This document shows, piece by piece, positions 6,650 to 29,536 of a DNA stretch of 64,000 nt. The notes under the pieces are model-generated. The model was not told the origin of the DNA. It searched no databases and saw nothing but the letters and a program-made list of their open reading frames with translations. The stretch lies in the NCBI GenBank assembly GCA_902610845.1, contig CACLXJ010000004.1, positions 1 to 64,000 on the forward strand. The letters run 5' to 3'. The DNA comes from an uncultured Alphaproteobacteria bacterium. Lineage in GTDB: Bacteria; Pseudomonadota; Alphaproteobacteria; HIMB59; GCA-002718135. The stretch's first letter is position 1, and each line of letters starts with the position of its first letter. The position numbers and the translations under genes are program-made.

Positions 6650-6651
6650 AT

Positions 6652-8549: not shown

Positions 8550-8550
8550 A

Positions 8551-9624
8551 TTAAATTCTCTCCTCAGATTTACTATCAAATATTGAAGATTTATTTATAT
8601 CAAAAGAGATACTTATTTCATCATTTAAATTAAAATTTGAGCTTCCTTCAAGTCTAATAGATATTGGATTACCCTCAACACTAGTCCACACAAGAGTATC
8701 TGCTCCCATAGGTTCCACTAATTCAACTTTACATTGCATAGAATTTTCATTTTTTTCTATATTTATGTTTTCAGGTCTAATTCCAAAGACAACCTCTTGA
8801 TCATTTATCAAATTATTTATATTTTCATATCTAGAAATATCAATTTGCTTTTTGCCAACAATTATTTTTTTATTTGATTTATCATAGATGGCTTTTAAAA
8901 AATTCATACTAGGAGATCCAATAAAACCAGCAACAAATAAATTGGCAGGTTTGTTATAAATTTGCTTAGGAGTATCTAATTGTTGTATTAATCCATCTTT
9001 CATCACTGATATACGATCAGCAAGCGTCATAGCTTCTATCTGATCATGAGTAACGTAAATCATTGTATTTGATAAATCTCTATGAAGTTTTTTAATTTCA
9101 TAGCGTAGTTCAGCTCTTAATTTTGCATCAAGGTTACTTAAAGGCTCATCAAATAAAAAAACTTTTGCATCTCTAACTAAAGCTCTACCAATAGCAACAC
9201 GTTGCCTTTGACCTCCAGAGAGTTGAGAAGGTTTTCTTTTAAGTAATTCATTTATTTGTAGGAGACTTGCCGCTTTATCAATTTTTTCATTAATTATATT
9301 CTTTGGCGTATTCATCATTCTTAGTCCAAATGATAAATTTTTCTCAACCGTCATACTTGGATATAATGCATAGGATTGGAATACCATTCCTATATGTCTA
9401 TCTTTTGGTTCTTTCCATGTAACGTTATCATCTTCAATCCAAATCTGTCCATCAGTTAAATCGAGAAGTCCTGCAATACAATTTAAAAGAGTTGTTTTTC
9501 CACAACCTGAAGGGCCAAGTAAAACCATAAATTCACCATCTCTTATATCAAGGCTTAAATCTTTTAGAATTTCAGTTTTACCATAACTGAATGAGATATT
9601 TTTTACTTCTACATTATTTTTCAT
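8551..9624 (-). CDS. Sugar ABC transporter ATP-binding protein (MalK/UgpC-like)
   Basis: LGPSGCGKTTLL, LSGGQRQRVAIGRALVRD, LFDEPLSNLDAKLR, C-terminal TOBE-like region (FGIRPENI). Confidence 0.95.
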   Translation of the reverse strand: MKNNVEVKNISFSYGKTEILKDLSLDIRDGEFMVLLGPSGCGKTTLLNCIAGLLDLTDGQIWIEDDNVTWKEPKDRHIGMVFQSYALYPSMTVEKNLSFGLRMMNTPKNIINEKIDKAASLLQINELLKRKPSQLSGGQRQRVAIGRALVRDAKVFLFDEPLSNLDAKLRAELRYEIKKLHRDLSNTMIYVTHDQIEAMTLADRISVMKDGLIQQLDTPKQIYNKPANLFVAGFIGSPSMNFLKAIYDKSNKKIIVGKKQIDISRYENINNLINDQEVVFGIRPENINIEKNENSMQCKVELVEPMGADTLVWTSVEGNPISIRLEGSSNFNLNDEISISFDINKSSIFDSKSEERI

Positions 9625-9626
9625 TA

Positions 9627-10508
9627 TTACCCCTTAATTGCTCCAGCTGCTATTCCTCTTACAAACCATCTTCCTGATATAAAATAAACAAAAAGTGGAA
9701 CAAGTGATGTTAAAATAGTTGCAGACATATCTACATTATATTCTGCAACCCCATAATCAACTTGCACTATGTTATTTAATTGAACTGTCATAGGTTGGTT
9801 GTCTCTACCTGCAAACACTAATCCTAGAAGAAAATCATTCCAAATTCCAGTAACTTGAAGAATGACAGCTACAATAGTTATAGGGGCAGACATTGGGATA
9901 ATAACATATAAAAATATTTTTATAAAATTACCTCCATCAATTCTTGCAGCCTTAAAAAGATCTATCGGTAAACTGACATAAAAATTTCTAAAAATTAATG
10001 TTAATATAGGCATACCAAAAATTGTATGTACTAAAATTATTCCTGGAAGAGTTGAATAAATACCTAAGGCATCTTCAATTTTAAGCAGAGGATAAACCAT
10101 TACTTGATACGGAATAAAAGCACCAAACATACATAAACCAAAAAAGAAGTAAGCACCCTTAAAGCGCCAGAAGGCTAGAGCATATCCATTTATTGCACTA
10201 AGCCCAACAGACACAATTACACTAGGAATAGTAATTTTAATTGAATTAAAAAAACCAGGTTTAAGACCTTCACATACAAATCCGGTACACGCTTGTGACC
10301 ACGCTTTTGGCCAAGAATAAAAGCTGAGTTCTTTTGGTAAATTTAAAATGTTTGCAGCTCTAATTTCATCCATATCTTTTAAGGATGTGATAACCATCAC
10401 ATATAACGGCATTAAAAAAAATATGGCACATACTAAAATAAAACAATACATGCCTATTCTTCCTATGGTTAAATGTTTTGGACGAGGTCCTGAAGGTATA
10501 GCACTCAT
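9627..10508 (-). CDS. Sugar ABC transporter permease (MalG/UgpE-like)
   Basis: EAA-like loop LFKAARIDGGNFIKIFLYVIIPMSAP; start trimmed from 10571 to MSAIPSGPRPKH, which overlaps the upstream permease stop (TAATG). Confidence 0.92.
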   Translation of the reverse strand: MSAIPSGPRPKHLTIGRIGMYCFILVCAIFFLMPLYVMVITSLKDMDEIRAANILNLPKELSFYSWPKAWSQACTGFVCEGLKPGFFNSIKITIPSVIVSVGLSAINGYALAFWRFKGAYFFFGLCMFGAFIPYQVMVYPLLKIEDALGIYSTLPGIILVHTIFGMPILTLIFRNFYVSLPIDLFKAARIDGGNFIKIFLYVIIPMSAPITIVAVILQVTGIWNDFLLGLVFAGRDNQPMTVQLNNIVQVDYGVAEYNVDMSATILTSLVPLFVYFISGRWFVRGIAAGAIKG

Positions 10509-11389
10509 TAATTTGCCGCGTATTTGTTTCTTAGATAAAATTCGTAAAATGCCCATGGAGCAAGTATACAAACAACAGAGATAAACATTATTATTGATGC
10601 TGCAAATGCTTGTCCTAAGTTAGCTCTGCTAAAAAAGTTTTCCATTACATACATAGCTGGGGTAGTTGTTGCATAACCAGGTCCACCAGATGTCAAAGCT
10701 AAAATTAAATCATAAACTTTTACAACTCCAGCAGCAATTAAAACTATCGCTGTAACAACCATTGGTCTAAGCATTGGTAGAATAACAAATAAATAAGATT
10801 TCCATTTTGCTACTCCTTCTATACTTAATGATTTCCAAATATCTTCATCGATACCTCTAAGACCTGCTAGCATCAGAACCATCACGAATCCTGCACCTTG
10901 CCAAACGGCAGCAATACATACTGCATAAATTGCTAAATCTCTGTTAACTAACCAATCAAGTTCAAACCAACCAAATCCCCACATATGCATTGAGTTTTCT
11001 AATCCAAAAGTAGGGTTTAGAACCCATTTCCAAACTAAGCCTGTTACGACAAATGACATTGCGTAAGGATATAAAAATATAGTTCTAAATAAACTTTCTC
11101 CTCTAATTTTTTGATCAATTAAGACTGCAAGTAGAAAACCTATTACTAGACATCCAATTGTAAATACAAAACCATAGATAAAAATATTTTCAACAGCTAC
11201 ATCCCATTTTCTTTGTTTAAACAATCTTTCATACTGATCAAAACCAACATAATTTATTACAGGAACTAATTTAGAGTTAGTTAAAGAATAAACAAATGAG
11301 TAAATAATACATCCAACAAACACTGTTAATGATATTACAATCATAGGAAGTAGCGCTACCATAGATGCAATATTTCTAAATAAAGGCAT
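10508..11389 (-). CDS. Sugar ABC transporter permease (MalF/UgpA-like)
   Basis: Six TM-like segments; IWKSLSIEGVAKWKSYLFVILPMLRP. Confidence 0.92.
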   Translation of the reverse strand: MPLFRNIASMVALLPMIVISLTVFVGCIIYSFVYSLTNSKLVPVINYVGFDQYERLFKQRKWDVAVENIFIYGFVFTIGCLVIGFLLAVLIDQKIRGESLFRTIFLYPYAMSFVVTGLVWKWVLNPTFGLENSMHMWGFGWFELDWLVNRDLAIYAVCIAAVWQGAGFVMVLMLAGLRGIDEDIWKSLSIEGVAKWKSYLFVILPMLRPMVVTAIVLIAAGVVKVYDLILALTSGGPGYATTTPAMYVMENFFSRANLGQAFAASIIMFISVVCILAPWAFYEFYLRNKYAAN

Positions 11390-11410
11390 ATCTTTTTTAA
11401 TTAAAATTTA

Positions 11411-11436
11411 TTAGGGCAGGTATGAACCTGCCCTAA
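11411..11436 (-). promoter_or_regulatory. Perfect 11-bp hairpin between SBP and permease genes (mRNA-stabilising or attenuating stem-loop)
   Basis: ttagggcaggt-atga-acctgccctaa; no U-tract immediately 3' on the minus strand. Confidence 0.75.
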
Positions 11437-11447
11437 GATTTATAATT

Positions 11448-12692
11448 TTATAGTCCGCTTGTTAGAACGCCTTCTAAATCATCCATTGCTTGAGCAACGG
11501 TATAATTAGGGTCATTTCTAAATTCAGAGATAATATCACCCCACGCAGCAGTAAATGCTGGTGTGTTCCAATCATCACTTTCTCTCATAATTGCATCAGG
11601 ATTTTGAATTAAATCTAAACCCATTTGCATACAAGCATCAGCAGCAGAAGTATCAACATCAAGTCTCATAGGAAGAGAACCTTTAGCATTATTAAATTTA
11701 GCTTGTACAGTTGGATTAACCATCATACTTGCCATTGCTAGTTGAGTATCTTTTACTTTTGGATCATCATTTTTAGGGAAAACAAAAACGTCACCACCAA
11801 GAGCAACATATTTTTCTTTTCCTGGGATAACACATGAATAGTCTTTCATTGCTTCCATTCCAGCAACAGCAAATTCACCTCTTGCCCAGTCACCCATTAC
11901 TTGCATTGCAGCTTTACCTTCGATGACCATTGCAGTTGTATCATTCCATAATCTTCCTGGAGAACCTTCATCAGTAAATTGATTTAGTTCTCTATAAGTA
12001 TTTAGAACTGATTCAAATCTACCATCTCTAAATGCATCAAGGTCTTTATCTCTATACACTGAACGCATTAATGGAAAACCCATAATTGAGGATGCAACTA
12101 CATCAAACATTCCTGATTCTTGCCATCCTTGTCCGCCTAGAGCTAGAGGAATAATTCCTGCAGCTTGTATAGTCGGAGCACCAGCTAGAAAATCTTCAAA
12201 TGTTTGAGGAACTGGAAGACCAACTTGTTTGTATACGTCGTTGTTAATCCACATCCATTGCCAACTATGAATATTTACTGGAACACAATAAAATTCACCT
12301 TCAAATTCGCAAGTTTCAATTAATTCAGGTGGATAAATAAAATCTCTCCATCCTTCAGCAGATGCAACTTCTTCAAGTGATTGAAGTAAGCCTTGCTCAA
12401 CTAAGTCTACAAATTGTTTTGAAATATTAAACTGTGCTGCAGTTGGTGGGTTACCACCTATAATTCTGTTTACAGTTGTTCCTCTTGCATTGTCTCCACC
12501 AGTAATAGCAGTATCAATCCAAGTATTACCCATCTCTTGCCAAGCTTCTGCAAATTGAGATATAGCAGCTTGTTCTCCACCAGATGTCCACCAGTGAATA
12601 ACTTCAGCTTCCATATGCCCAGCAGCTTTAGAAACATTAGAATAAGATAGGGGTAGAAATATAGTTAAAAGTATTGAAAAAAGTTTTTTCAT
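11448..12692 (-). CDS. Sugar ABC transporter substrate-binding protein (family 1, CUT1-like)
   Basis: Signal peptide, AEVIHWWTSGGEQAAISQFAEAW..., upstream GGGAGG RBS. Confidence 0.92.
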   Translation of the reverse strand: MKKLFSILLTIFLPLSYSNVSKAAGHMEAEVIHWWTSGGEQAAISQFAEAWQEMGNTWIDTAITGGDNARGTTVNRIIGGNPPTAAQFNISKQFVDLVEQGLLQSLEEVASAEGWRDFIYPPELIETCEFEGEFYCVPVNIHSWQWMWINNDVYKQVGLPVPQTFEDFLAGAPTIQAAGIIPLALGGQGWQESGMFDVVASSIMGFPLMRSVYRDKDLDAFRDGRFESVLNTYRELNQFTDEGSPGRLWNDTTAMVIEGKAAMQVMGDWARGEFAVAGMEAMKDYSCVIPGKEKYVALGGDVFVFPKNDDPKVKDTQLAMASMMVNPTVQAKFNNAKGSLPMRLDVDTSAADACMQMGLDLIQNPDAIMRESDDWNTPAFTAAWGDIISEFRNDPNYTVAQAMDDLEGVLTSGL

Positions 12693-12780: not shown

Positions 12781-13737
12781 TTAGAGAAGATTCAACCAAT
12801 TAATTTCTTCTTGGCTTAGCTCAATATCAAGGCAAGGAAGGGTTGTGTCTAGCTCTTTAACAGATCTAGGACCAATTAATGCAAAAGAAGGAAAAGATTG
12901 GTTTATAGTCCAACTTGCTGCAATATTATGAGCAGAACAACCTTTTTTTTCAGCTAGTTCCATAGCTCTTTTTTTTCTTTCTCTATTATCTTCACTATCA
13001 TAGCAACTAATAGGACCGCTTGAGTTCTCCCCTGGTGCTCTATATGTTTCTGCCTTAGTAATTTTATCTTCAATCTCTTGCGTTATATTATCAGGTAAAA
13101 AGTACCCTCTTGCTTGACTAGACCAAGACATATGAGATTTTTGTGAAGAATTTAGGTATGCCAGTATCTCTTCAGTATTAGATGACAAGCAACCATTCCA
13201 AAGAGGCTTAATCATTTTAGCAAGTGCTAAATTATTATTTAAAATTGACATTTCTTGTTTATTATTTTTTTCTGACCATTCATTTGCTTCTTTAAATCTT
13301 TGTATTGTCCAGTTTGAACCACCAAATATTTTAATTCTGCCTTTTTCTTTTTCTTGATTCAAAACATCCATAAATTCATCAATTGGATAATCAGTATTAT
13401 CTCGGTGCATGATATAAATATCAACATAATCTGTATTCATTCGTTCAAGAGAGATAGTTAATTGTTTTGAAATCGCTTCAGGGTTACATTCAGGTGTATG
13501 TGCACCTTTGCCGAGTATTAAAACATCTTTTCTATTATTATTATTTTTTAACCATTCGCCAAAAACTTTTTCATGATTACCACCGCCATATATAAATGCA
13601 GTATCAAACATATTGCCACCAACTTCAATCCAATGATCCCATAACTTTGAAGCTTCATTAATATCATCTTGGTTATCACATCCCATAACAAGTTTAGAAA
13701 TGTCTTTATCTATTCCTTTTATTCTATCGTATTTCAT
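12781..13737 (-). CDS. Aldo/keto reductase
   Basis: MFDTAFIYGGGNHEKVFGEWL, VDIYIMHRDN, FGGSNW, ALIGPRSVKELDT. Confidence 0.92.
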   Translation of the reverse strand: MKYDRIKGIDKDISKLVMGCDNQDDINEASKLWDHWIEVGGNMFDTAFIYGGGNHEKVFGEWLKNNNNRKDVLILGKGAHTPECNPEAISKQLTISLERMNTDYVDIYIMHRDNTDYPIDEFMDVLNQEKEKGRIKIFGGSNWTIQRFKEANEWSEKNNKQEMSILNNNLALAKMIKPLWNGCLSSNTEEILAYLNSSQKSHMSWSSQARGYFLPDNITQEIEDKITKAETYRAPGENSSGPISCYDSEDNRERKKRAMELAEKKGCSAHNIAASWTINQSFPSFALIGPRSVKELDTTLPCLDIELSQEEINWLNLL

Positions 13738-14777
13738 ATTTCATCCTGTGGTAATTTATAATTTACTTTTTCTCTCCATGTATCAAGAGCTTGAAGATTG
13801 CCTAATGTATCTTCCCAAGTCATTGCTGGGTGAGGTGGTTGTGTTTTTTCCTTTGCAATGCACTGGCTTGCAAGTTCTCCTTCAAAGAAAAATAAATGTT
13901 CTGGTCCCTTAACATCAATTACTTCGTCATTACCATTTTTACTAATAATGATTTTTGCATGATAAGGACCTCCTTGTCTTCCTGGCATCCATGGATCGGG
14001 TAATTCGATAGTACCTTCAGAGCCTGTAATAATAGCATTATTTTTCATGCTTTCTCTAATTGCAGTTGAGACTTTGGCTTTAATTCCATTTTTAAATTCT
14101 AAATTGGCATGAGCAACTTCATCAACTCCTGTTTCCCCTATTCTTGCTTCAGCATCTATAAAAGTAGGCTCTAAAAACTTTTCTCCAGTTGCAACACCTG
14201 CAATTAATCTAGAAAAGGAAATAGGATATAAACCAACATCCAATATACCACCGCCTGCAAGACTTTTATTAAACAGTCTGTGTTCAGGAATTGTTTTACC
14301 CATATCAAAACCAAAAGAAGCTTCAATAGATGTTATATCCCCTATTGTTTTATTTTTTATTACTTCTAAAAGTTTTGGAATTTGAGGATGACATCGATAC
14401 ATAAAGCCTTCCATGTAAAAAACTCCAGCTTCTTTTACTGCCTCTATTATTTTTTTACCTTCGTTTAAATTGACAGCGCCTGGTTTTTCACAAAGAACAT
14501 GCTTTCCTTTACCTGCAGCTTTGATTGTCCATTCAGCATGCAAAGTATGTGGTGTAGAAATATAAATAGCATCTATATGTTCTGAATTGATAATATCATC
14601 ATAATTATCAAATCTAAAATCAGGATGAATATCATATTTATCACCAAAGGTTTTTCGACGGTTTTCATTTTTACTTGCTATACTTACGAGTTGACCCGAG
14701 TAAGAATCTTTTAATCCATCTGCAAAATTATTAGCTATATTACCTGGTCCAATAATTCCCCATTTAATTTTTTCCAT
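13734..14777 (-). CDS. Gfo/Idh/MocA family oxidoreductase (second copy, distinct)
   Basis: KWGIIGPGNIANNFADGL, HVLCEKPGAVN, MEGFMYRCHPQ. Confidence 0.93.
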   Translation of the reverse strand: MEKIKWGIIGPGNIANNFADGLKDSYSGQLVSIASKNENRRKTFGDKYDIHPDFRFDNYDDIINSEHIDAIYISTPHTLHAEWTIKAAGKGKHVLCEKPGAVNLNEGKKIIEAVKEAGVFYMEGFMYRCHPQIPKLLEVIKNKTIGDITSIEASFGFDMGKTIPEHRLFNKSLAGGGILDVGLYPISFSRLIAGVATGEKFLEPTFIDAEARIGETGVDEVAHANLEFKNGIKAKVSTAIRESMKNNAIITGSEGTIELPDPWMPGRQGGPYHAKIIISKNGNDEVIDVKGPEHLFFFEGELASQCIAKEKTQPPHPAMTWEDTLGNLQALDTWREKVNYKLPQDEI

Positions 14778-14778
14778 A

Positions 14779-16605
14779 CTACCCTTTTACAGCTCCAGCC
14801 GATAATCCTGCAATATAATATTTTTGTACAAAAGAAAAAATTACTATAATTGGAATTGTTGTTAAAGTTGCAAAAGCCATAGCTTGTCCATACTGTGGTT
14901 CCTGACCTACACTTAGTGCAAATACTTCCGTCATTCCTAGGGGAATGGTATAGTTAAGATCATCTCTTAAAATTATAAGTGGCCATAGGAAACTATTCCA
15001 AGAATTAACAAATGTAATTATTGCAAGAGTAGCAATACCTGGCCAAACAAGTGGAACAACTATTTGCCAAAATATTCTAAATTCACCAGCTCCATCCGAT
15101 CTTGCTGCTTGAATTAATTCATCAGGAACTGATGTTATGAATTGTCTCATCATAAAAATTCCTATAGCAGGTGCAACAAAAGGAATTATTAGCCCCGTTA
15201 GAGTATCATTCAATCCCATTCTTCCAACTAAGACGTAAAGCGGGATCATTATAATTGGGAAAGGTATCATTGCTGTTGCTACCATAAATATGAAGAGTTT
15301 GTTCTTTCCTTTAAAGTTATATTTAGCAAATGCATACCCAGCTAAAGTACATAAAAAAATCGTTAGAAGTGTTACAGCTATTGCAACAAAGAAGGAATTG
15401 AATATCCATAAACTTGCTGGAAACTCAGTAAACAATTTTGTTACATTTTCCCAATTAGGACTTTTAGAAAAAACTATTGGTGGCCATGCCATTATTTCTG
15501 CTGTTGATTTAATTGATGAGGTAAGCATAAAAAAGTAAGGAATTAGTGTTATCAAACCTATAATTGTTATTATTAAATTTAATGAATATTTTCCAATTGT
15601 TGGCGATAAGGATTTTTTGCTAGAACTAGAAGACTCAATTGGAAAAATATTAGCAATAAAATCTATAATAGGAGATAAAATTCTCTCAATAAAACTTTTT
15701 TTAGCATCCTGATCTAAATTTGACGCAAATGATCTAAATTGAAATAATGATATAGCTAAAATACAGATGAACATAAATACACCAATAGAAGATCCAAAAC
15801 CTAATTTGAGCTGATTAAAGCCTCTTTCCATCATGTAAACAACCATTGATTTAGCATGGGTTGGAACATCATTTCCACTATACATAACAAATACATCTTC
15901 AAATATTTGAAATGAACCAATAGAAACAATTATACAAACAAATAATGTTACAGGTGCTAGCTGAGGAAGAGTTACATACCAGAATTGATGCCATGCTGTT
16001 GCTCCATCTATTTTTGCAGCTTCATATAATGTTCTATCTATAAATTGTAGTCCAGCTAAAAAATAAATACAGGTTAAGCCTGTCCATCTCCATATAATTA
16101 ACATCATAACAGACCACTTAGAAGTTGAAGATGATTCAACCCAATTGATTGGCTCAATTCCAATAAGGCCAATCATATAATTTAAGAGCCCAAATTCACT
16201 GTTTAGTATCATCTTAAATGTTAAGGCCGCTGCTACGACTGATGTAACTATAGGTGAGAAAAATACTAGTCGCCAAAAAGGTTTTAGTTTTAAACTATGA
16301 CTATTAAGAGCAAGAGCTAATAAAAGTGCAAGAGGAATGGTTATAAATACACTTCCAGCAGAATAAAATACTGTGTTTAGGAAAGTTTCCCAAAAGTTTT
16401 GGTCTTTAAAAAATAAATATTCAAAATTTCCCCACCCCCGAGGTTTAGGAGCTTTAACACCTTTCCATTTATAAAAAGCTAAAATAAAAGAAGCTATGGT
16501 AGGTAAAAGAAAAAAAATTGTAAAAATAATATAAAATGGCGATATAAAAAAATAAGGCGCAACCTTTTCAGGTCTTAATCTTCGACTATTACTCACAACT
16601 GACAT
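14779..16605 (-). CDS. Fused sugar ABC permease (MalF-like plus MalG-like in one chain)
   Basis: 608 aa. N-half MalF-like (YFFISPFYIIFTIFFLLP...YEAAKIDGATAWHQFWYVTLPQLAP); C-half MalG-like (LITLIPYFFMLTSSIKSTAEIM...LIQAARSDGAGEFRIFWQIVVPLVWP). Two EAA-like loops in a single ORF. Confidence 0.93.
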   Translation of the reverse strand: MSVVSNSRRLRPEKVAPYFFISPFYIIFTIFFLLPTIASFILAFYKWKGVKAPKPRGWGNFEYLFFKDQNFWETFLNTVFYSAGSVFITIPLALLLALALNSHSLKLKPFWRLVFFSPIVTSVVAAALTFKMILNSEFGLLNYMIGLIGIEPINWVESSSTSKWSVMMLIIWRWTGLTCIYFLAGLQFIDRTLYEAAKIDGATAWHQFWYVTLPQLAPVTLFVCIIVSIGSFQIFEDVFVMYSGNDVPTHAKSMVVYMMERGFNQLKLGFGSSIGVFMFICILAISLFQFRSFASNLDQDAKKSFIERILSPIIDFIANIFPIESSSSSKKSLSPTIGKYSLNLIITIIGLITLIPYFFMLTSSIKSTAEIMAWPPIVFSKSPNWENVTKLFTEFPASLWIFNSFFVAIAVTLLTIFLCTLAGYAFAKYNFKGKNKLFIFMVATAMIPFPIIMIPLYVLVGRMGLNDTLTGLIIPFVAPAIGIFMMRQFITSVPDELIQAARSDGAGEFRIFWQIVVPLVWPGIATLAIITFVNSWNSFLWPLIILRDDLNYTIPLGMTEVFALSVGQEPQYGQAMAFATLTTIPIIVIFSFVQKYYIAGLSAGAVKG

Positions 16606-16631
16606 ATTACTATTTTTATTCTATTTTTAAA

Positions 16632-16655
16632 AAAGCAGGGTAAAAACCCTGCTTT
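16632..16655 (-). promoter_or_regulatory. Perfect 10-bp hairpin downstream of the second SBP gene
   Basis: aaagcagggt-aaaa-accctgcttt; minus-strand 3' side reads CTTTTTTAAAAA, so partly terminator-like. Confidence 0.7.
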
Positions 16656-16668
16656 AAAAAATTATCGT

Positions 16669-17922
16669 CTATAAAAAGTCAAGTTCATCCTGAACTTGTG
16701 AAATAAACCTTTCATGAGCTTCTTCAGCAGTTATTTCACCATTTGCAAGTAACGTAGTTAAGTCACGAGAAACAGAGTCAATAATTGCTCTTCCAACATG
16801 TTGATAGTCATCAGCACTTGAACCAGCTACTGAAATGAATGGTTCAGCAAATTTTTGACCTCCATAAAAATCAAACTTTTTGTCAGCAATTCTAGAATCC
16901 TCTAGAGCTGATAATAAAGTAGGCATACCTCCAAAGAAATCATACTTTGCAATTTGACCTTCATAAGAAAAATATGCAAGTTCAAGAAGTTTTTTTGCTA
17001 CATCAACTGCTTCTGAAGATTTATGAATGGCAAAACCAGTTCCACCCCAGTGAAAAGTTTTATAACCCTCATCTCCCCAAGTAGGAAGTGGAGCAACTCT
17101 CCATTCACCCGCTTGTGTATCTCTCACAGTAGGTTGTAAGCAGCAATTATTGTACCAATCAGGTGCCATTGTTCCAACTGTTTGTTTAGAATTATATAAA
17201 ACACCAGGAGTTTGACCCCAATAATCAGTTGTATAATTTATTACACCACTCGCAAAAGCTTCTTCTTGGTATTTTAAAATGTCCATGAAAAGATCTTCAT
17301 TCATTTCGAATTCGCCATCTTCATTAAAGAATTTACCACCAGCTTGTTGGTACATACCAATAAATCTTAATTCAGAAAGCATCATTGAAATACCATCTTT
17401 AGCTAAGATCTTTCCTGTTTCCATAAACTCATCCCAAGTTTTAGGAACTGATTTACCATAACTTTCAAGAATACTTGGGTTATAGTAATAAACCATATAA
17501 CAACCTTCACTCTCGATACCGTAGATTTCACCATTGGTATGAGTCCAAGCAGCTACCTTACCAGGATTCCATTGAGACATATCTCCGTACATATCAGTTA
17601 ATGGTACAAAATTATCTGAAATGATATCATCAACCATAAACAATCCGAAACCACTTATTTCTATTCCAAGTAGATCTGTATGTTCAGAACCTGAAGCTAT
17701 AGCTGTTAAACTATTTGTCGCCATGTCAGGAGTAACTTGAAAGTCAAAAGTTATGTTATCATCTGGAAATGCCGCCTGCACTTCTTCTAAGTAAGTATTA
17801 AAATAATCAACGTAGAGTTGGTTATGAGTCCACATTGATAAAGTTACATCTCTAGCATTAGAAGCCGATGAAAAACCAACTAAAACTGCGAGAGATAAAA
17901 TTAAGGATTTAATTAATTTCAT
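16669..17922 (-). CDS. Sugar ABC transporter substrate-binding protein (family 1)
   Basis: Signal peptide; RDVTLSMWTHNQLYVDYFNTYLEEVQAAFPD; GGGAGG RBS upstream. Confidence 0.92.
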   Translation of the reverse strand: MKLIKSLILSLAVLVGFSSASNARDVTLSMWTHNQLYVDYFNTYLEEVQAAFPDDNITFDFQVTPDMATNSLTAIASGSEHTDLLGIEISGFGLFMVDDIISDNFVPLTDMYGDMSQWNPGKVAAWTHTNGEIYGIESEGCYMVYYYNPSILESYGKSVPKTWDEFMETGKILAKDGISMMLSELRFIGMYQQAGGKFFNEDGEFEMNEDLFMDILKYQEEAFASGVINYTTDYWGQTPGVLYNSKQTVGTMAPDWYNNCCLQPTVRDTQAGEWRVAPLPTWGDEGYKTFHWGGTGFAIHKSSEAVDVAKKLLELAYFSYEGQIAKYDFFGGMPTLLSALEDSRIADKKFDFYGGQKFAEPFISVAGSSADDYQHVGRAIIDSVSRDLTTLLANGEITAEEAHERFISQVQDELDFL

Positions 17923-18013: not shown

Positions 18014-18841
18014 TTAATTATTTGGTGAAAGAACTTTTTCGTGAGGCATTACTATTTTTTTTTGAAATTCAGTAAGATTTGATAGTAATTTTTTTGAAGG
18101 TCTATACGGGTGTCTGAAAAAACCCCAAGAAGGTCCATATCTGTAAACAACAATTCTTCTTTCTCCCTTATTTGTTCTTTTTGCAGACCCATGACAGAGT
18201 GAATCAACAAATAATAGTCCATCACCAGCTTTTAAATAAATTTCCTTTGAAGCAGTCATATTATCAGCAGATGTAACTTTGCCTTTTTTCATAGAATGTT
18301 TTTCAAATTCGGGATGACGTATATTTGATTTATGAGATGAAGGTATAATTACAGTACCGCCATCACCAGGACCAATATCTTTTAACGCTAATAAGATATT
18401 TACTTGACCACAATGAAACTTTCCTTCTTGAAATCTATAATGATTTCTTTGAAGAGCTTCGTGATGGCCAGAGTGAATGCCAATAGCTTCCCCCGGTCCT
18501 CTTATGTTAGCAAAATTTTCATCAATAAATAAAGGACCGTGATGTTGATCAAAAGTATCTTTGCCTCCAACAAAATGAAGCATATGATTAATCCAAGATG
18601 GATGATCAATTAATTTTTCGAATGGCTTACCTGCTTCGTAAATTTGCTGAAGATTAAGACCCTCTTTTCCACCATAGTTGTGACCATGAACATGTCCTGC
18701 CCATTCATCATTTTTTACATTTTTTAATTTATCTAAAATATTATTAAGATTTTTTAACTCTTTTTTATTTAAAGCATTTTCAATTACTAAGTATCCATTT
18801 AGATCAAATAAATATTCATCAAGCTTAGAAATTTTTTTCAC
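18014..18841 (-). CDS. Phytanoyl-CoA dioxygenase (PhyH) family protein with HSG instead of HxD
   Basis: IGIHSGHHEALQRNHYRF...GDGGTVIIPSSHKSN...FVDSLCHGSAKRTNKGERRIVVYRYG; paralogous to 21271..22104. Confidence 0.88.
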   Translation of the reverse strand: MKKISKLDEYLFDLNGYLVIENALNKKELKNLNNILDKLKNVKNDEWAGHVHGHNYGGKEGLNLQQIYEAGKPFEKLIDHPSWINHMLHFVGGKDTFDQHHGPLFIDENFANIRGPGEAIGIHSGHHEALQRNHYRFQEGKFHCGQVNILLALKDIGPGDGGTVIIPSSHKSNIRHPEFEKHSMKKGKVTSADNMTASKEIYLKAGDGLLFVDSLCHGSAKRTNKGERRIVVYRYGPSWGFFRHPYRPSKKLLSNLTEFQKKIVMPHEKVLSPNN

Positions 18842-18886: not shown

Positions 18887-19951
18887 CTAATTTATGACTG
18901 CTTTAAACTCTCCAGTTTTATATCTTGTAGCCATTTCTCCTAAAGTTATGGAATTAATAGCGGAGGCATTCCCTGCTGTTCCAAATTCTTGTAATCTACT
19001 TTTTACAACTTCTTTCATAGCATCTTTTGAAAGTAATAAATATTTTCGTGGATCAAACTGAGAAGGATTCTCATGAAAATATTTTCTTACTGCAGCTGTG
19101 GCTGCTAATCGTAAATCTGTATCAACATTAACTTTTCTAACACCATGCTTAATACCTTCTTGAATCTCTGAAACAGGTACACCATATGTTTCTTTTATTT
19201 TTCCACCGTATTCATTAATAGTTTTTATTAAGTCTTGTGGTACAGAAGATGATCCATGCATAACTAAGTGGGTATTTGGAAGTCTTGAATGTATTTCTTT
19301 AATTCTATCGATTGCTAAAATATCACCTGTAGGTGGTCTAGAAAATTTATATGCACCATGACTTGTTCCTATAGCAATTGCTAGAGCATCAACATTTGTT
19401 GCTTTAACAAAGTCTGAAGCTTCATTTGGATCCGTTAACAATTGATCATGATCAAGCTTACCTTCTGCTCCAACACCATCTTCTTTTTCACCAGTCCCAG
19501 TTTCTAAAGAGCCTAAACATCCAATTTCACCTTCTACAGAAACTCCCAATGCGTGTGCCATATCAGTAGTTTCTTTAGTAACTCTAACATTATAATCAAA
19601 ATCTGAAGGTGTTTTTTGATCATCCAATAAAGAACCATCCATCATCACAGAAGTAAAACCAAGATCGATACAATTTTTACAATCTGATGGAGAACCACCA
19701 TGATCTTGATGTAAAACAGTTGGAATGTCTGAAAACTCGTCCATTGCTGCTTCAACTAATTTTTTAACAAAAATTGGTCCAGCATATTTTCTGGCAGCAC
19801 CAGACGCTTGCAGAATAACAGGACTATTTAATTCTTTAGCCCCTTCCATTATTGCTCTGATTGCTTCTAAGTTATTAACGTTAAATGCAGGTACACCATA
19901 ATTATTTTCAGCTGCATGATCTAATAGTTGTCGAAGTGAGATTAATGACAT
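18887..19951 (-). CDS. Class II fructose-bisphosphate aldolase
   Basis: [65 protein letters not shown]; probable start [12 protein letters not shown] (ORF start 19972). Confidence 0.93.
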
Positions 19952-19996
19952 ATGGGATATCTTCTTAAACATTAAAAAAATTAATTCAACAATACA

Positions 19997-21270: not shown

Positions 21271-22104
21271 ATGCAGCATCCTAGTGAATTAGAAAAATAT
21301 CTTTTTGATCTCAAAGGATTTATCATAATCAAAAACGCTTTGTCGAAAAAGGAATTAAAAGATTGTAACAAAATAATAGATAAAATTAAAAGTACACCTT
21401 CAGATCAATGGAAGGGAAATGTGCATAGTAAAGGAAATATAGATCAGCATGGAGTTGAACTTCAACAAATTTACGAAGCTGGTAAACCTTTTGAAAAATT
21501 AATTGATCACTCTTCATGGATAAATCATATGAAACACTTTGTGGGCGGAGAAGGAACATTTGATTATAATCATGGACCATTATTTATCGATGAAAACTTC
21601 GTAAATGTTAGAGGACCTGGAAAAGCTATTCCAGTTCATTCTGGTGCTCATGAAGGTACTCAAAGAGGACACTATAGATATCAAAATGGAAAGTTTCATT
21701 GTGGTCAAATAAACATTTTGGTAGCATTAACTAAAATCAATAAAGGTGATGGAGGAACAGTTATAATTCCTGGATCACATAAGTCTAATTTAAAACATCC
21801 TCAATTTGACAAGTATAAATTAAAAAAAGATGGAAAGTATAAAACTGCTGATAGCATGATTGGATCAGAAGAGGTCTATTTAAATGCAGGTGATGCTATA
21901 TTATTTGTTGATTCTCTTTGTCATGGATCTTCGAGAAGAATTAATAAAGGAGAAAGAAGAGTTGTTATATATAGATATGGTCCATCTTGGGGCTTCTTCA
22001 GGAATAACTACAGGCCTTCAAAAGAATTATTAAATAGACTAACTAAACTTCAAAGAAATATTGTAATGCCTCATGAAAAGGTAATGTCTCCAGAAATAAA
22101 TTAA
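21271..22104 (+). CDS. Phytanoyl-CoA dioxygenase (PhyH) family protein with HSG instead of HxD, paralogue of 18014..18841
   Basis: IPVHSGAHEGTQRGHYRY...GDGGTVIIPGSHKSN...FVDSLCHGSSRRINKGERRVVIYRYG. Confidence 0.88.
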   Translation: MQHPSELEKYLFDLKGFIIIKNALSKKELKDCNKIIDKIKSTPSDQWKGNVHSKGNIDQHGVELQQIYEAGKPFEKLIDHSSWINHMKHFVGGEGTFDYNHGPLFIDENFVNVRGPGKAIPVHSGAHEGTQRGHYRYQNGKFHCGQINILVALTKINKGDGGTVIIPGSHKSNLKHPQFDKYKLKKDGKYKTADSMIGSEEVYLNAGDAILFVDSLCHGSSRRINKGERRVVIYRYGPSWGFFRNNYRPSKELLNRLTKLQRNIVMPHEKVMSPEIN

Positions 22105-23627
22105 AGGGACGCAAATTCTAAATAGTCGTTGTGTTTAATAAAATCTTTCATTTGATCATCATATTGATCATTGAAACGTTTGTATTCATCTCTGGCAAAA
22201 GGTTTTAGATTAAAATTATTCATTTCTTCTCTTGCAATATCTTTTTTAAGCAAACCAAGTCCATCTAAAACAGGATAGTATAATTGTGACTGAACATGTG
22301 GTAGCCCTGATAGATATAAATCAAAATCACTCATCCTAGGTAGTTGGTTGTTCCATTTATTAATTAATTTTAAGGTATCTTCATGGATGCATTCATTTTT
22401 TATAAATTTCCAAAAATCACTATCCTCCCTATTTGAAATATAATGTGTATTCAGAAATATCATGAAGTCATCAAATTGATGTCCTACTCTTTCATTAAAT
22501 TCATCAATTACCTTTTCATTATTAAAATCCATTTCTTCTTTAAGATAATCGGTTGCAAATAAGATCATTTGTATCAGAGTACTATGGATTGAAGTAGCTT
22601 CTAATGGTTCAAGGAAGCCAGAGGCTAATCCAATGGCAATACAATTTTTTACCCATGATTTTTCTATTCTTCCAGAAGTAAATTTTATGTCATTTCTCGG
22701 TTCAATTTCGTGTCCTAAAACTTTCTCTATTTCAATTTTAGCTTCTTCAGGACTAGTAAAATCATCACAATATACATAACCCGCACCAATTCTTTCTTGA
22801 GTTGGTATTTGCCACATCCAACCATTTTTTTGTGCCCAAGCTAAAGTATAATTACTAATATTTTTTTCATCTAATTTTAAAAAAAAAGGCATAGCTCTAT
22901 TTACTGGTAAATTTTTTTGATAAGATTTCCAACCAACATTAAATATTTTATTTATAAGAAGTTTTCTGAAGCCTGTACAATCAAAGACTAAATCTGTTTC
23001 AATTTCTTTTCCACTTTTAAAATGAAGTTTTTCAATTTCTCCGTTTTGATTTAATGATGCATGAGTATAAACTTCATCTAGAATTTCTATATTTTTAGAT
23101 CTTTTTCTTAAATAGTTTCCAACAAGATTATTATCAAAATGATAAGCATAGAAAAAAGGACTCTTTAAATCTGGTCTATTGTTTTCAAAATTAAAGGGAA
23201 CTTTATTTTTTTCCATTAGTTTTGTATGCAAGTGTACATCAGCAACTGATCTACCCGCAGCAACAGCATAAACATTTAAATATTCAAAATCTTCGGGAAC
23301 TTTTTTAGAGGCTAATAAGTGTGGGTCATCAATAGGTCCATAATATTGATGATTTAGTTCTTTCCAGTCTTTATGAACAATTCCAAATTTTAAGGTTGCT
23401 TTTGTTTCTTTTAGAAAGTCTAATTCATCTAAGTTATATCTTTTTAAAAAATCATAAAATATACCTGTTGTCCCTTCTCCTACACCAATTATCGGAATAC
23501 TAGAAGGATCAACAATGGTTACTTTTATATCTTGTTTGTTTGTATAAAAAAAATCACTAAGAATATATGCAGAAATCCAACCGGCAGTTCCCGCACCAAG
23601 AATAGTAACATTTTTTATTTTTCTCAT
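22101..23627 (-). CDS. Flavin-dependent (tryptophan) halogenase family protein
   Basis: GAGTAGW at N-terminus, PIIGVGEGTT, conserved-Lys region ATLKFGIVHKDW, WxWxIP motif (GWMWQIPTQERIGAGYVY), GLASGFLEPLEATSIH. Confidence 0.92.
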   Translation of the reverse strand: MRKIKNVTILGAGTAGWISAYILSDFFYTNKQDIKVTIVDPSSIPIIGVGEGTTGIFYDFLKRYNLDELDFLKETKATLKFGIVHKDWKELNHQYYGPIDDPHLLASKKVPEDFEYLNVYAVAAGRSVADVHLHTKLMEKNKVPFNFENNRPDLKSPFFYAYHFDNNLVGNYLRKRSKNIEILDEVYTHASLNQNGEIEKLHFKSGKEIETDLVFDCTGFRKLLINKIFNVGWKSYQKNLPVNRAMPFFLKLDEKNISNYTLAWAQKNGWMWQIPTQERIGAGYVYCDDFTSPEEAKIEIEKVLGHEIEPRNDIKFTSGRIEKSWVKNCIAIGLASGFLEPLEATSIHSTLIQMILFATDYLKEEMDFNNEKVIDEFNERVGHQFDDFMIFLNTHYISNREDSDFWKFIKNECIHEDTLKLINKWNNQLPRMSDFDLYLSGLPHVQSQLYYPVLDGLGLLKKDIAREEMNNFNLKPFARDEYKRFNDQYDDQMKDFIKHNDYLEFASL

Positions 23628-25249
23628 TAGAAGATAATATCAAAGGCAGATTTTATTAAATTCTTCGTATAATCATTCTGTGGGTTTTTTAATATATTTT
23701 TTGCCACACCCTGCTCTAAAATTGACCCATCTTTCATAACAATTAAATTGTGACTTATCGATCTAATAACTCTTAGGTCATGACTAATAAAAATATAAGT
23801 AGTTTTATGATTTTCTTGAAGCTGTAGCAATAATTCTAAAATTTGTTTTTGAATAGATAAATCAAGTGCAGATGTAGGTTCATCTAAGAGCACAAATTTT
23901 GGGTTTAAAACAAACGATCTTGCAATAGCAATTCTTTGTCTTTGTCCTCCAGAAAACTCATGGGGAAATCTAAGCATAGAACTGGGTTCTAAACCAACTT
24001 CATTCATTATATTTTCAATTTTATTTAAACGCTCGTTTTTATCTTTTACATTCAGCGCTACAATTAATCCTTCTTCAATAATTTGTTTAACTGACAATCG
24101 AGGATTTAAAGATGCGTATGGATCTTGGAAAACAATCTGCATTTGATTTCTAAATGGTTTAAATTGCTTTCTAGATAAATTATCAATTCTATCTTCAAAG
24201 AAATTTATTTTACCCTCTACTTCTGTGTTAGATTCTCTGTCGACTAATCTTAATAAAGTTTGACCTAAAGTAGTTTTACCGGATCCACTTTCACCAACAA
24301 TTCCGAGAGTCTCACCTTCTTTAAGATCGAGACTAATATTATTAACAGCATTAATTGATAAAACTTTATTTTTACCTGAAACTTTTACTTTAGTATTGAA
24401 GGTTACATTAAGATTATCTCCCGCAAGTATACTTCTTCCACTCTTATCATAATATAAATCTCTTTCTTCTGGCTCTGAAGATAATAAGTGTTTTGTATAA
24501 TTATCTTTTGGATTTTCAAAAATTTCTTTTGTTTTTCCTGTTTCCTTTATACTTCCATTATACATTACACAAACTCTATCACTAATTTGTCTGACTATTG
24601 TAAGATCATGTGTGATAAACAAAATTGACATTTGATATTTTTTTTGAAGACCTTGGAGTAATTTGAGAATCTCTGTTTGTACTGTAACATCAAGAGCGGT
24701 AGTTGGTTCATCAGCAATAAGTAAATCAGGATTATTAGCTATAGCAATAGCAATCATAACTCTTTGCCTTTGCCCTCCTGATAATTGATGTGGGTACTGT
24801 GATAATCTAGATTCTGGTTCTGGTATTTGAACTTGATTTAACAATTCTAAACATTTCTCTTTAAGCTCTTTATCTGAAAATTTTCCGTGAATTTTTAAAA
24901 CTTCACTGATTTGATTTTCAATTGTGTATATGGGATTTAACGAACTCATCGGTTCCTGAAAAATCATTGAAATATTTTTTCCTCTAATATTTTGATACTC
25001 TTTCTCTGAATAAGAATTTATATTTGTTCCATTAAATTTAATTGAAGTTTTGTCAGATATTACAGCGTTCTCGGCAAGTAATCGAATGATCCCTCTGGCT
25101 GTAACTGATTTTCCAGAGCCGCTTTCTCCAACCAATGCTAAAGTTTCACCTTTTTTAATATGAAATGATATTCCATTTACTGCATTAACTTCACCACTAT
25201 CAGTATTAAATTTTACAAACAGATTTTCTATTTCAACAAGATTGGTCAT
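23627..25249 (-). CDS. ABC transporter with two fused ATP-binding domains (Dpp/Opp/Yej-type)
   Basis: Two Walker A (GESGSGKSVTARG; GESGSGKTTLGQ) and two signature motifs (LSGGQRQRVMIA; FSGGQRQRIAIA). Confidence 0.95.
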   Translation of the reverse strand: MTNLVEIENLFVKFNTDSGEVNAVNGISFHIKKGETLALVGESGSGKSVTARGIIRLLAENAVISDKTSIKFNGTNINSYSEKEYQNIRGKNISMIFQEPMSSLNPIYTIENQISEVLKIHGKFSDKELKEKCLELLNQVQIPEPESRLSQYPHQLSGGQRQRVMIAIAIANNPDLLIADEPTTALDVTVQTEILKLLQGLQKKYQMSILFITHDLTIVRQISDRVCVMYNGSIKETGKTKEIFENPKDNYTKHLLSSEPEERDLYYDKSGRSILAGDNLNVTFNTKVKVSGKNKVLSINAVNNISLDLKEGETLGIVGESGSGKTTLGQTLLRLVDRESNTEVEGKINFFEDRIDNLSRKQFKPFRNQMQIVFQDPYASLNPRLSVKQIIEEGLIVALNVKDKNERLNKIENIMNEVGLEPSSMLRFPHEFSGGQRQRIAIARSFVLNPKFVLLDEPTSALDLSIQKQILELLLQLQENHKTTYIFISHDLRVIRSISHNLIVMKDGSILEQGVAKNILKNPQNDYTKNLIKSAFDIIF

Positions 25250-26352
25250 TATTTTTTAGTAGTTGTTGCATAAGGATCAATTGCATCTCTCAAAGCATCG
25301 CCCAAAGCATTAAATCCTAAAACTGAAATTAAGATTGCAAATACAGGACTTAGGACCCATGGATAACTTCCAATGGTTCGCAAATCTTGAGCAGAGTTTA
25401 ATTGTAGCCCCCAACTAACAAAAGGTGATTGAATCCCAAGTCCTAAAAAACTAAAAAAACTCTCGGTTAAAATTACTGATGGTATTAATAGTGACACACT
25501 AACTATAACATGACTGGTAACATTCGGAAGTAAATGTCGATAAATAATTCTTAAATCATTTGAACCTAATGCTTCAGCTGCTTTAATATAATCCAATCTT
25601 CTTAGTGATAGAGTTTTTCCACGAACCTCTCTTGATAGCTGTGCCCATCTCAGTGATGATAAAATAAATGCCATAAAAATAAATATTAAAAATGGATCCA
25701 TCTGTCTTGGAAGTATTGCGACAAGTGATAAATATAATGGTAAATCAGGAAAGGCTAAAGCTAGTTCTGTAACCCTTTGAGTAGCAATATCAAATTTTCC
25801 TGCAAAATAACCAGAACTTATTCCAACTAAAATACCAATGAAAGTGGTAATACTAACTACTATTAGTGCAAATAATAATGTTACTCTGCTTCCTTTAAAA
25901 ATTCTTGATAGCATATCTCTACCGTAAGCATCAGATCCAAGGAAAAATACTTTAGATCCATCTTTAGTGGTAAATAAGTGAAAATCTAATTTCATTCCAA
26001 GAAAATTATATTTCCACCCCCTTGTAAAAAAATAAAGATAATTTTTTTGTGAATAATCTGTCTCCATTATAGGTTCAAATGTATCAGGATCAAAAGACTC
26101 ATTAAAACCATATGAGAATGGTCTTAAAGAAAAATTATTTTCTTCATCAAAAAAGTGAATTCCCTGCGGTGGATAAAATACTCTATCACTATCTCTTGCC
26201 GCAGGATCATAAGGTGATAAAAAATCTGCAAAAACTGCAGAAAAAATTAAAAACCCTACAAAGACTAAACCAAGTATTCCAACTCTATTTTTTAAAAATC
26301 TTTTTTTGACAAGAGAAAAATAAGAATTTTGCAAGTTAGAACTTATTTCCAT
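25249..26352 (-). CDS. ABC transporter permease (OppC/YejE-like)
   Basis: FLKNRVGILGLVFVGFLIFSAVFADFLSPYDP..., YIKAAEALGSNDLRIIYRHLLPN; start trimmed from 26442 to MEISSNLQ. Confidence 0.92.
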   Translation of the reverse strand: MEISSNLQNSYFSLVKKRFLKNRVGILGLVFVGFLIFSAVFADFLSPYDPAARDSDRVFYPPQGIHFFDEENNFSLRPFSYGFNESFDPDTFEPIMETDYSQKNYLYFFTRGWKYNFLGMKLDFHLFTTKDGSKVFFLGSDAYGRDMLSRIFKGSRVTLLFALIVVSITTFIGILVGISSGYFAGKFDIATQRVTELALAFPDLPLYLSLVAILPRQMDPFLIFIFMAFILSSLRWAQLSREVRGKTLSLRRLDYIKAAEALGSNDLRIIYRHLLPNVTSHVIVSVSLLIPSVILTESFFSFLGLGIQSPFVSWGLQLNSAQDLRTIGSYPWVLSPVFAILISVLGFNALGDALRDAIDPYATTTKK

Positions 26353-26357
26353 AATAT

Positions 26358-27356
26358 TTAATTCTGCCTTACGCGTGGATCTAAAATGGCTAGTAGAATA
26401 TCTGCAATAATATTTCCAATTATTAATATTACTGTTAAACAAAATAAAATTGCGGCTGTAGTATATGTGTCTTGTCTTTGAATGGATTCTACCAAAAGTG
26501 GTCCTGCAGTTGGAATGGATAAAACAATTGCAGCTTCTAGTTCTCCCATTAACATATAAGGTAAAGCAATACCCTGAAACATAACAAGAGGGTGTAAAGC
26601 ATTTGGAACTGCATGACGATACAACGTTTGATTTTCAGATAAACCTTTTGCTCTTGCAGTTTCAATATACTGCATTCGCATTACATCTAATAAATTTCCA
26701 CGCATAACTCGCATGTTATAAGCAAGTCCTCCAATAATTGCGATTAGAAATATTGGCCAAATATGAAGTATACCATTCCATAACTTTGCAAATGACATTG
26801 GTTGAACTGCGTAATATGGTGAATACATAGAACCCGTGTTGTCAGAATTTAAAACAATTGCTAACCAATACATAATTAAAAGTGCTAGAAAAAAACGTGG
26901 AATTGTCATTCCTAAAAAAGCGAACACAGTAGCTACATTATCACCTAACTTGTTTTGATTTTTTGCTGCATAAATTCCAATAAATACACCTATAGTTGTT
27001 GCAAAAAAATGACAGATTAATGCTATTACTAATGTTCTAGGCAATCTATCAGCTAACATCTCACTTACAGGTTTGTTGTAGTGCATTGAAAAACCAAAAT
27101 CAAAATTTAGAACAATATTTTTAATCCAATTAAAATATCTAATTACAACTGGCTCATTCAGACCATATTTTTCTCTCAATGATTTTGTAAGTTCTAAAGC
27201 TTGTTCTTGTGTAATATTTGCTAAAGCCTTAGTTTGACTAACGTACCACGTTGCATAATCACCTGGCGGTAATTCGATAATAAAAAAAATAATTATACTG
27301 ATTACAAAAAGAAGTGGAAGTGAATAAAGAATTCTTCTGATAATAAATGAAAACAT
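26358..27356 (-). CDS. ABC transporter permease (OppB/YejB-like)
   Basis: FIIRRILYSLPLLFVISIIIFFI..., YIETARAKGLSENQTLYRHAVPNAL. Confidence 0.94.
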   Translation of the reverse strand: MFSFIIRRILYSLPLLFVISIIIFFIIELPPGDYATWYVSQTKALANITQEQALELTKSLREKYGLNEPVVIRYFNWIKNIVLNFDFGFSMHYNKPVSEMLADRLPRTLVIALICHFFATTIGVFIGIYAAKNQNKLGDNVATVFAFLGMTIPRFFLALLIMYWLAIVLNSDNTGSMYSPYYAVQPMSFAKLWNGILHIWPIFLIAIIGGLAYNMRVMRGNLLDVMRMQYIETARAKGLSENQTLYRHAVPNALHPLVMFQGIALPYMLMGELEAAIVLSIPTAGPLLVESIQRQDTYTTAAILFCLTVILIIGNIIADILLAILDPRVRQN

Positions 27357-27369
27357 ATTTTTTTATAAT

Positions 27370-27394
27370 GTAAGGGGCTATGTTAGCCCCTTAC
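27370..27394 (-). promoter_or_regulatory. Perfect 11-bp hairpin downstream of the third SBP gene
   Basis: gtaaggggcta-tgt-tagccccttac; no U-tract immediately 3' on the minus strand. Confidence 0.75.
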
Positions 27395-27405
27395 AAAAAG
27401 ATTTA

Positions 27406-29460
27406 TTAATCAATACCAGGAACTCTTCCTGGGAATAATTCATCCAATTGATCATATTGATAAACCCAGAATTGTTCACGGATAACTGTATCTTCAGCCC
27501 ATTGATAAGCGAGAACAGGCATTCCATCAGCTAAATTTTGAATTCTTTTATTTATCAAAAGAGCTGTTGGGTACTGAACTATACCAGGTTGATAGACATT
27601 TTCAGTGAATAATTTCTGATATTGAGACATCAATTGTTTTGCTTCATCTCCTTCAACACCGTCTCTCCATCTTTCAAGAATTTGAACTATTTCTTGTTCA
27701 AATGATTGTAATTGTTGAGGGTGTTCATCAGTTCCTAGATGAGGAGTAAAAGATGAAGTTGTTATAGGGCCTAGTTCTTCCCAATAACCTGAGTTTGGAA
27801 AAGCATACTCCTGTTGAGCTCTGCTAATTATCCAATCATACTCACCTGATTGTCTTGTTGGTTCTGTGTCTTCCATTGGTTTAACATTTACTTTAATTCC
27901 AACTTCAGACATCATAGTTGCAAGACCATCACCAATTAGTTTCTCGTTTTCACTATCCTTATTTTGCGTCAAATTAATAACAAGATCTCCGCCTCCGTTA
28001 GGAAGGTTTCGAACACCATTACCATCAGTGTCTGCAAGTCCTAAACCATCTAGTAGAGCATTTGCCCCTCCAGGATTATAAGGAAAAAATGATGTAGCTT
28101 CAGGATCAAAGAAGGCGCTATCTCTTGCCATACCACCAGCATAAACAGTAGCAAAAGGCCCTTTTGACATAGCATTCGCAAATGCTTTACCATCTATTGC
28201 GTGCTGAATAGCTTTTCTAAAATCCAAATTTCTATTTAGATCTCGAATAGCAGCCATCTGATCATCTAACACACCTACACCAATCGCTTGATTCATATAA
28301 AGATGATATCCCATAGTTCTTCCACTAAATGAAAGTCCTGCTTGCGCGTCTTCACTCTTAGATTCTTTAACAGCTTCTAAGTATAGAGGAACATTCTCCA
28401 TATTTGAGAAGTCAGCGTTACCAGCTAAGGTATCAACTGTTCTTTGGCCCCATGTTTTTAACTGGAACACCATCTCGTTCATATACGGAAGCTGTTGTCC
28501 TTTACTATCTACTTTCCAATAATATGGATTTCGACGAAGTATAACGACTTCATCTTGTTTATATTCGACTGCTGTCCAAGCTCCCATACTTACCCAAGGT
28601 AATCGTCCAGCTGGAAACGCAGCTACATAATCATCATAAGATGTACCATCATACTTAGGGTGATGCTCTTTAAGTAAGTGTGAAGGTCCAGGGCATCCGT
28701 TTATATATGCCATAGAGTGCAAATTAAGTTTTGGTTCATTTTGTGGAAACGTCCACTTAATTTGAGTTGGGCTTAATATTTCTAAAGTTGTGCCTGCACC
28801 CATAGTAGTAGCATTCATTCTTGTTGGAACATTCTCATCGAGAACATTGTCTTCCCACCAAAAACGAACATCTTCAGAATCAAAAGGATCTCCATCAGAC
28901 CATTTAGCACCATCAATAAGATTCATTGTTAACGAATTTCCATCCCATTCCCAATCAGTTGCTAGGTTTGGTAAAGGATAAGAGTCTTCGGCTTTTAGTC
29001 TTACCATTGGACCATTTCTTGTTAAACATTCTTGAACTGTGTAATTAATTCCACCCCATCCTTGATGTTGTGAAGCTGTCCAGTTCCATCCTTCTGGTCT
29101 TCCTCCAATAGTATGTCTAAAAGTTCCTCCATAGCGACCAATACCATCTGGCATTGCATCTCCATTAAAAACTAAAGGTTTTTTTGGCAAACGTTCCCAT
29201 ATTGGGGGGAGTTTTCCTTCTTGAACAAGAGCGCTTATATAGTCTGGTTCATATAGAAATTCAAAGTCTCCAATATCTTGATAGCTCATCAATTCATCTC
29301 GTCCGACAAATTGAACTTCTTGCATATTTTCAATTGCAGGTGCTGACGGAAGTGCTGTGGCACCCTCCGGTCTAGCAGATACATTTGTACTAGTTAATGC
29401 AAAAGTAGCAGAAGCTACGCTAGCAAGTAATGTGGATCTAAATTTATTTTTTTTCATCAT
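27406..29460 (-). CDS. ABC transporter substrate-binding protein, family 5 (oligopeptide/oligosaccharide type)
   Basis: Signal peptide; GIGRYGGTFRHTIGG..., SLTMNLIDGAKWSDGDPFDSEDVRFWWEDN. Confidence 0.93.
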   Translation of the reverse strand: MMKKNKFRSTLLASVASATFALTSTNVSARPEGATALPSAPAIENMQEVQFVGRDELMSYQDIGDFEFLYEPDYISALVQEGKLPPIWERLPKKPLVFNGDAMPDGIGRYGGTFRHTIGGRPEGWNWTASQHQGWGGINYTVQECLTRNGPMVRLKAEDSYPLPNLATDWEWDGNSLTMNLIDGAKWSDGDPFDSEDVRFWWEDNVLDENVPTRMNATTMGAGTTLEILSPTQIKWTFPQNEPKLNLHSMAYINGCPGPSHLLKEHHPKYDGTSYDDYVAAFPAGRLPWVSMGAWTAVEYKQDEVVILRRNPYYWKVDSKGQQLPYMNEMVFQLKTWGQRTVDTLAGNADFSNMENVPLYLEAVKESKSEDAQAGLSFSGRTMGYHLYMNQAIGVGVLDDQMAAIRDLNRNLDFRKAIQHAIDGKAFANAMSKGPFATVYAGGMARDSAFFDPEATSFFPYNPGGANALLDGLGLADTDGNGVRNLPNGGGDLVINLTQNKDSENEKLIGDGLATMMSEVGIKVNVKPMEDTEPTRQSGEYDWIISRAQQEYAFPNSGYWEELGPITTSSFTPHLGTDEHPQQLQSFEQEIVQILERWRDGVEGDEAKQLMSQYQKLFTENVYQPGIVQYPTALLINKRIQNLADGMPVLAYQWAEDTVIREQFWVYQYDQLDELFPGRVPGID

Positions 29461-29536
29461 TCCTCCACTTAAAATTTAATAAAACCTATAATATTATCTT
29501 AATAATGAGAAGTATTATTTAAGTTTAGAATTAGTA

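Follow-up and report, generated by a model that had tools for sequence, protein, structure and literature searches.

PhyH-family paralogues with an H-S-G motif in marine alphaproteobacterial sugar loci belong to an existing HxG lineage that contains HygX

Introduction

Canonical PhyH oxygenases such as human PhyH, PHYHD1 and EctD keep an H-x-D motif, and H-x-G is the motif of the halogenases WelO5 and BesD. In Fe/2OG halogenases, Gly or Ala replaces the acidic iron ligand (PMC13244439). In P4H, removal of the acidic ligand alone does not yield halogenation (PMC2767507), and in a hydroxylase homologous to BesD it is insufficient for efficient halogenation (PMC13244439). Human AspH is a natural two-His Fe/2OG enzyme that hydroxylates, with no halogenation seen (PMC6817910, PMC13168262). 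HygX has been assigned to orthoester formation on sugars, an assignment that rests on its structure and pathway (PMC8234114).

Here we describe two PhyH paralogues, A and B, encoded in a 64,000-nucleotide stretch of DNA (the window) from an uncultured alphaproteobacterium of HIMB59. The HIMB59/AEGEAN-169 group is noted for extra sugar transport (PMC10308909).

Results

Gly replaces the acidic iron ligand in paralogue A

Paralogue A matches the Pfam PhyH model (PF05721) with 62.2 bits over residues 12-229 of 275, well above the cut-off of 22, and has the distal His and 2OG-type Arg of the family. Its gene begins with GTG, where most orthologues have ATG, and GC content is low (29%). The features discussed below are collected in Table 1.

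The original prediction had placed H123-S-G125 at the HxD/E position, the distal iron ligand at H217 and the 2OG-binding Arg 11 residues further on at R228, and each of these positions is borne out. The translation reads H123-S124-G125-H126-H127-E128. In a full-length MAFFT alignment the HxD motif fell out of register with HSG; when the rows of the HxD relatives were trimmed to their C-terminal halves, the His residues came into register. H123, H217 and R228 are then invariant columns in the alignment with the HxD relatives, indicating that HSG occupies the HxD position. The canonical 2-His-1-carboxylate site has Asp or Glu at H+2; A, B and all of their relatives have Gly.

Table 1. Coordinates of the genes and active-site residues in the window
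Feature	Coordinates	Strand	Basis or remark
Sugar locus, continued: GH1 beta-glucosidase, Gfo/Idh, IolE-like TIM barrel, MalK-type ATPase, two permeases, binding protein	5288..12692	-	
Genes after A on its strand	12781..17922	-	Order kept in many relatives
Aldo-keto reductase	12781-13737	-	
Gfo/Idh	13734-14777	-	
Fused permease	14779-16605	-	
Sugar ABC binding protein	16669-17922	-	
Paralogue A: PhyH (PF05721) Fe/2OG oxygenase, HxG lineage, 275 aa	18014..18841	-	
R228: predicted 2OG-binding Arg, 11 residues after H217	18158..18160	-	Translation, alignment
H217: distal iron His	18191..18193	-	Translation, alignment, 58/58 relatives
E128 (H+5): candidate substitute carboxylate ligand	18458..18460	-	Acid in 57/58 relatives
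H123-S124-G125: first iron His; Gly replaces acidic ligand	18467..18475	-	Translation, alignment
Class II fructose-bisphosphate aldolase	18887..19972	-	Immediately precedes A in most related loci
Paralogue B: 67% identical to A, also with HSG motif	21271..22104	+	
Flavin-type tryptophan-halogenase-family gene, convergent with B	22101..23627	-	
Opp-type ABC transporter and GH4 alpha-galactosidase-type gene, adjoining the halogenase-family gene	23627..31000	-	

The motif is highly conserved. HSG and the distal His-Arg pair are found in all 58 distinct A/B-type relatives, with Gly at the position of residue 125 throughout, while positions H+3 and H+4 vary, a pattern that argues against HSG having arisen by chance. 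An acidic residue is found at H+5 in 57 of the 58 proteins, and the sole exception carries Glu at H+4.

The protein encoded by paralogue A is found in 60 of the 162 genomes of the order that we searched (E 1e-20), all within one genus. Relatives with 45-59% identity are sparse and come from one other alphaproteobacterial family, and the nearest named records are from single-cell marine Alphaproteobacteria, one of them labelled Pelagibacteraceae AG-337-I02. A search of viral and phage collections returned no close homologue; one distant HxG protein is from an IMG/VR contig. Seven further PhyH genes in the same genome have Asp at His+2, with HQD in five, HND in one (L038) and HID in one (L039). 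The third PhyH gene in the window (31067-31798, + strand), which adjoins a fatty-acid desaturase gene, has a normal HQD motif.

HygX is the closest relative of known structure

By sequence, the top PDB relative of paralogue A is HygX, with an E-value of 6.7e-13 for A alone and 3.5e-13 for the family profile. In the PDB alignments the HygX motif is H-G-G and the site reads LHGGN. The same LHGGN is present in a Streptomyces plasmid protein near-identical to HygX, encoded in a region that carries the APH(7'') hygromycin-resistance gene. The family profile retrieved no halogenase at E 0.01. A weak match of B to TIGR01762, the SyrB2-type chlorinating-enzyme model, scored 18.8 bits against a cut-off of 226.3 and was rejected as superfamily background; A was not listed at E 0.001.

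An AlphaFold2 model of A built on a diverse alignment, from which two plasmid-collection rows were left out, has a pLDDT of 85 and a pTM of 0.87; with an alignment of 13 near-identical sequences the pLDDT was only 44.7. When the AlphaFold2 model was used as the Foldseek query, HygX chains occupied ranks 1-14 with TM-scores of about 0.65-0.76, so that HygX comes first by fold as well as by sequence.

In a phylogenetic tree built with the motif region removed, all 15 HxG proteins, including HygX, group together behind a single branch (support 96/91). HygX adjoins the HSG family (97/82) on a long branch, and its exact position is therefore less certain than the grouping of the HxG proteins. We conclude that HxG is best read as a trait inherited within one lineage rather than as the mark of a recent change to the chemistry of a halogenase. 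The original prediction had warned that uncharacterized PhyH subfamilies share an HxG-like motif, and this caveat was apt.

HygX has the same gap at the acid position, and its crystal structures contain metal and 2OG, with hygromycin B also present in one of them. No halogenating activity is known for HygX. Its structure paper is said to discuss variation in metal coordination, which we treat only as a lead.

Paralogue A lies among sugar uptake and catabolism genes

Downstream of paralogue A, the fused permease gene is a single 608-aa open reading frame that appears to join two sugar ABC permeases, MalF-like and then MalG-like. In one group of orthologues (e.g., L061-L070), A lies immediately before the Gfo/Idh and aldo-keto reductase genes. 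Relatives in other genera have similar neighbours: a glycoside hydrolase, sugar ABC genes and Gfo/Idh in L105; an AraC-type regulator and Gfo/Idh in L106; and GH4 and a halogenase-family gene in L104 and L136. In one subgroup (L071, with the A orthologue at 8001-8828, and similar loci) A has moved to a different setting, where a peptide-type ABC transporter lies upstream. In L071, SDR and GMC oxidoreductase genes lie downstream, with no Gfo/Idh.

Adjacent to paralogue B is the flavin-type halogenase-family gene, which lies within a sugar-uptake locus. In an alignment to 6NSD, its product retains both catalytic residues of characterized flavin halogenases, Lys and Glu. A relative of this gene clusters with an HSG PhyH gene, GH4 and an Opp-type transporter in a second genus (L104, L136), but the halogenase-family gene is missing from many loci that bear A. 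Paralogue B occurs in only some of the loci with a halogenase-family gene (L049-L051, L059 and L060 compared with L052, L054-L058 and L079). Where present in these loci it is always at the same spot, between the halogenase-family gene and an MFS gene. Because B is found in only part of these loci and at one place, its distribution suggests that it has been gained or lost independently.

Discussion

The active-site variant of paralogue A is real and conserved, yet it belongs to an existing HxG lineage of PhyH proteins that contains HygX. The reading that we favour, with a probability of roughly 0.6, places A and B in the HygX lineage of PhyH oxygenases, with iron coordinated by two His residues and water and with a sugar, glycoside or polyol as the compound oxidized. 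For A, the most likely activity is the oxidation, with O2 and 2OG, of sugars, glycosides or related polyols; we infer this class of substrate because sugar transporters, glycoside hydrolases and Gfo/Idh genes adjoin A both here and in other genera. Against the carbohydrate assignment is the setting of the L071-type relatives, with their peptide-type transporter and SDR/GMC genes in place of Gfo/Idh. Against membership in the HygX lineage are the identity of about 20-25% and the long HygX branch.

In the mechanism that we propose, Fe(II) would be bound by H123 and H217 and 2OG by R228. With Gly at position 125, the carboxylate that normally occupies the third facial site would be missing, and water would probably take its place, as in human AspH. 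Reaction of O2 with 2OG would then produce a ferryl species that would abstract hydrogen from a C-H bond in the sugar, glycoside or polyol, a compound that may enter the cell through the ABC transporters encoded nearby. After hydroxylation, O-dealkylation or oxidative cyclization, the product could pass to the Gfo/Idh and aldo-keto reductase enzymes encoded alongside.

The third iron ligand could instead be a displaced carboxylate. The original prediction had pointed to E128 as a nearby acid, aptly in that this residue is conserved, and its role as a ligand is that of a candidate. If E128 coordinated the iron, A would have a displaced 2-His-1-carboxylate triad and would be an ordinary hydroxylase-type oxygenase. 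The retention of an acid at H+5 in nearly all relatives while H+3 and H+4 vary is consistent with this idea, as is the Glu at H+4 in the one exception. HygX also has Glu at H+5, and the AlphaFold2 model puts E128 where a short helix begins just after the motif, in a loop of lower confidence. However, two HxD relatives from the neighbouring branch (L114 and L118, HTDGGE) carry this Glu in addition to the Asp, and so the Glu may serve another, more ancient function. The distant HxG proteins L102, L120 and L122, moreover, have no acid at H+5. We regard coordination by E128 as less likely than a two-His site with water, but it deserves consideration alongside it.

A third possibility is the one originally raised, namely that A and B are true Fe/2OG halogenases in which chloride or bromide would enter the site opened by G125 and be transferred to a substrate radical. 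The part of that prediction concerning a missing canonical carboxylate stands, and the missing ligand is conserved, but the proposal of a halogenase-like active site is not supported: the nearest solved protein is HygX, which also carries HxG, and the chlorinating-enzyme model is a poor fit. G125 does provide the Gly or Ala expected in place of the acidic ligand, the marine setting would supply halide, and a flavin-type halogenase-family gene adjoins B, with a relative beside an HSG PhyH gene in another genus. Nevertheless, the nearest kin by sequence, fold and tree is HygX, the SyrB2-type model gives B a score far below its cut-off, the locus is catabolic and the flavin-type gene is absent from many A loci. 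Moreover, loss of the acidic ligand is inadequate by itself in P4H and in the BesD-homologue hydroxylase, and AspH does not halogenate. We consider true halogenase activity very unlikely. Halogenation by paralogue A is a weak guess because the ligand gap is common to the HygX lineage and the gene lies amid sugar-uptake genes; that we entertain it at all is due to the flavin-type gene beside B. A more elaborate version, in which A and B would act as sugar or glycoside halogenases in partnership with the flavin-type enzyme, making carbohydrate halogenation part of a catabolic locus in a small-genome marine bacterium, seems to us highly improbable. Our search of the literature on HxG halogenases among PhyH proteins and on halogenase-family genes in sugar loci found nothing useful.

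Finally, the absence of one canonical iron ligand might suggest that A and B no longer catalyse oxidation and persist as binding or regulatory relics, but we give this little credence, given that both His residues and the 2OG Arg are invariant in 58/58 relatives and in the distant HxG proteins, and that HygX crystals bind metal and 2OG despite the same gap.

Two broader points follow. First, HxG can characterize an entire lineage of PhyH proteins, one with a sugar-acting member, and taken alone it does not identify a halogenase. Second, the A/B-type proteins offer a compact natural set of Fe/2OG enzymes without the acidic ligand, located in marine bacterial sugar loci, that would lend itself to probing what the third ligand does.

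Comparison with known systems

The canonical PhyH oxygenases (human PhyH 2A1X, PHYHD1 and EctD) share PF05721, the distal His and the 2OG Arg with A and B, and differ from them at the H-S-G motif. The halogenases SyrB2, CytC3, WelO5 and BesD resemble A in having two iron-site His residues and a Gly or Ala where the acidic ligand would normally be, but they show no close sequence kinship to A and occur in a different gene context. Human AspH likewise does not have an acidic ligand and yet hydroxylates, with water in the site (PMC13168262). It belongs to a separate branch of 2OG oxygenases and acts on a protein substrate, so that the analogy is one of site only.

The closest parallel is HygX (PDB 4XC9, 4XCA, 4XCB and 4ZPI), the Fe/2OG oxygenase of the hygromycin B pathway, which has a PhyH fold like that of A. 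The two proteins have in common H-x-G at the acid position, Glu at H+5, the distal His and Arg, 'YHDGK' and 'GSHKxNF'-like blocks and a sugar-related context. Sequence identity is low, at about 20-25%, and the loop that follows the motif is longer in HygX. HygX functions in a Streptomyces antibiotic pathway, whereas A and B are encoded in marine Alphaproteobacteria, in loci for the uptake and catabolism of sugars.
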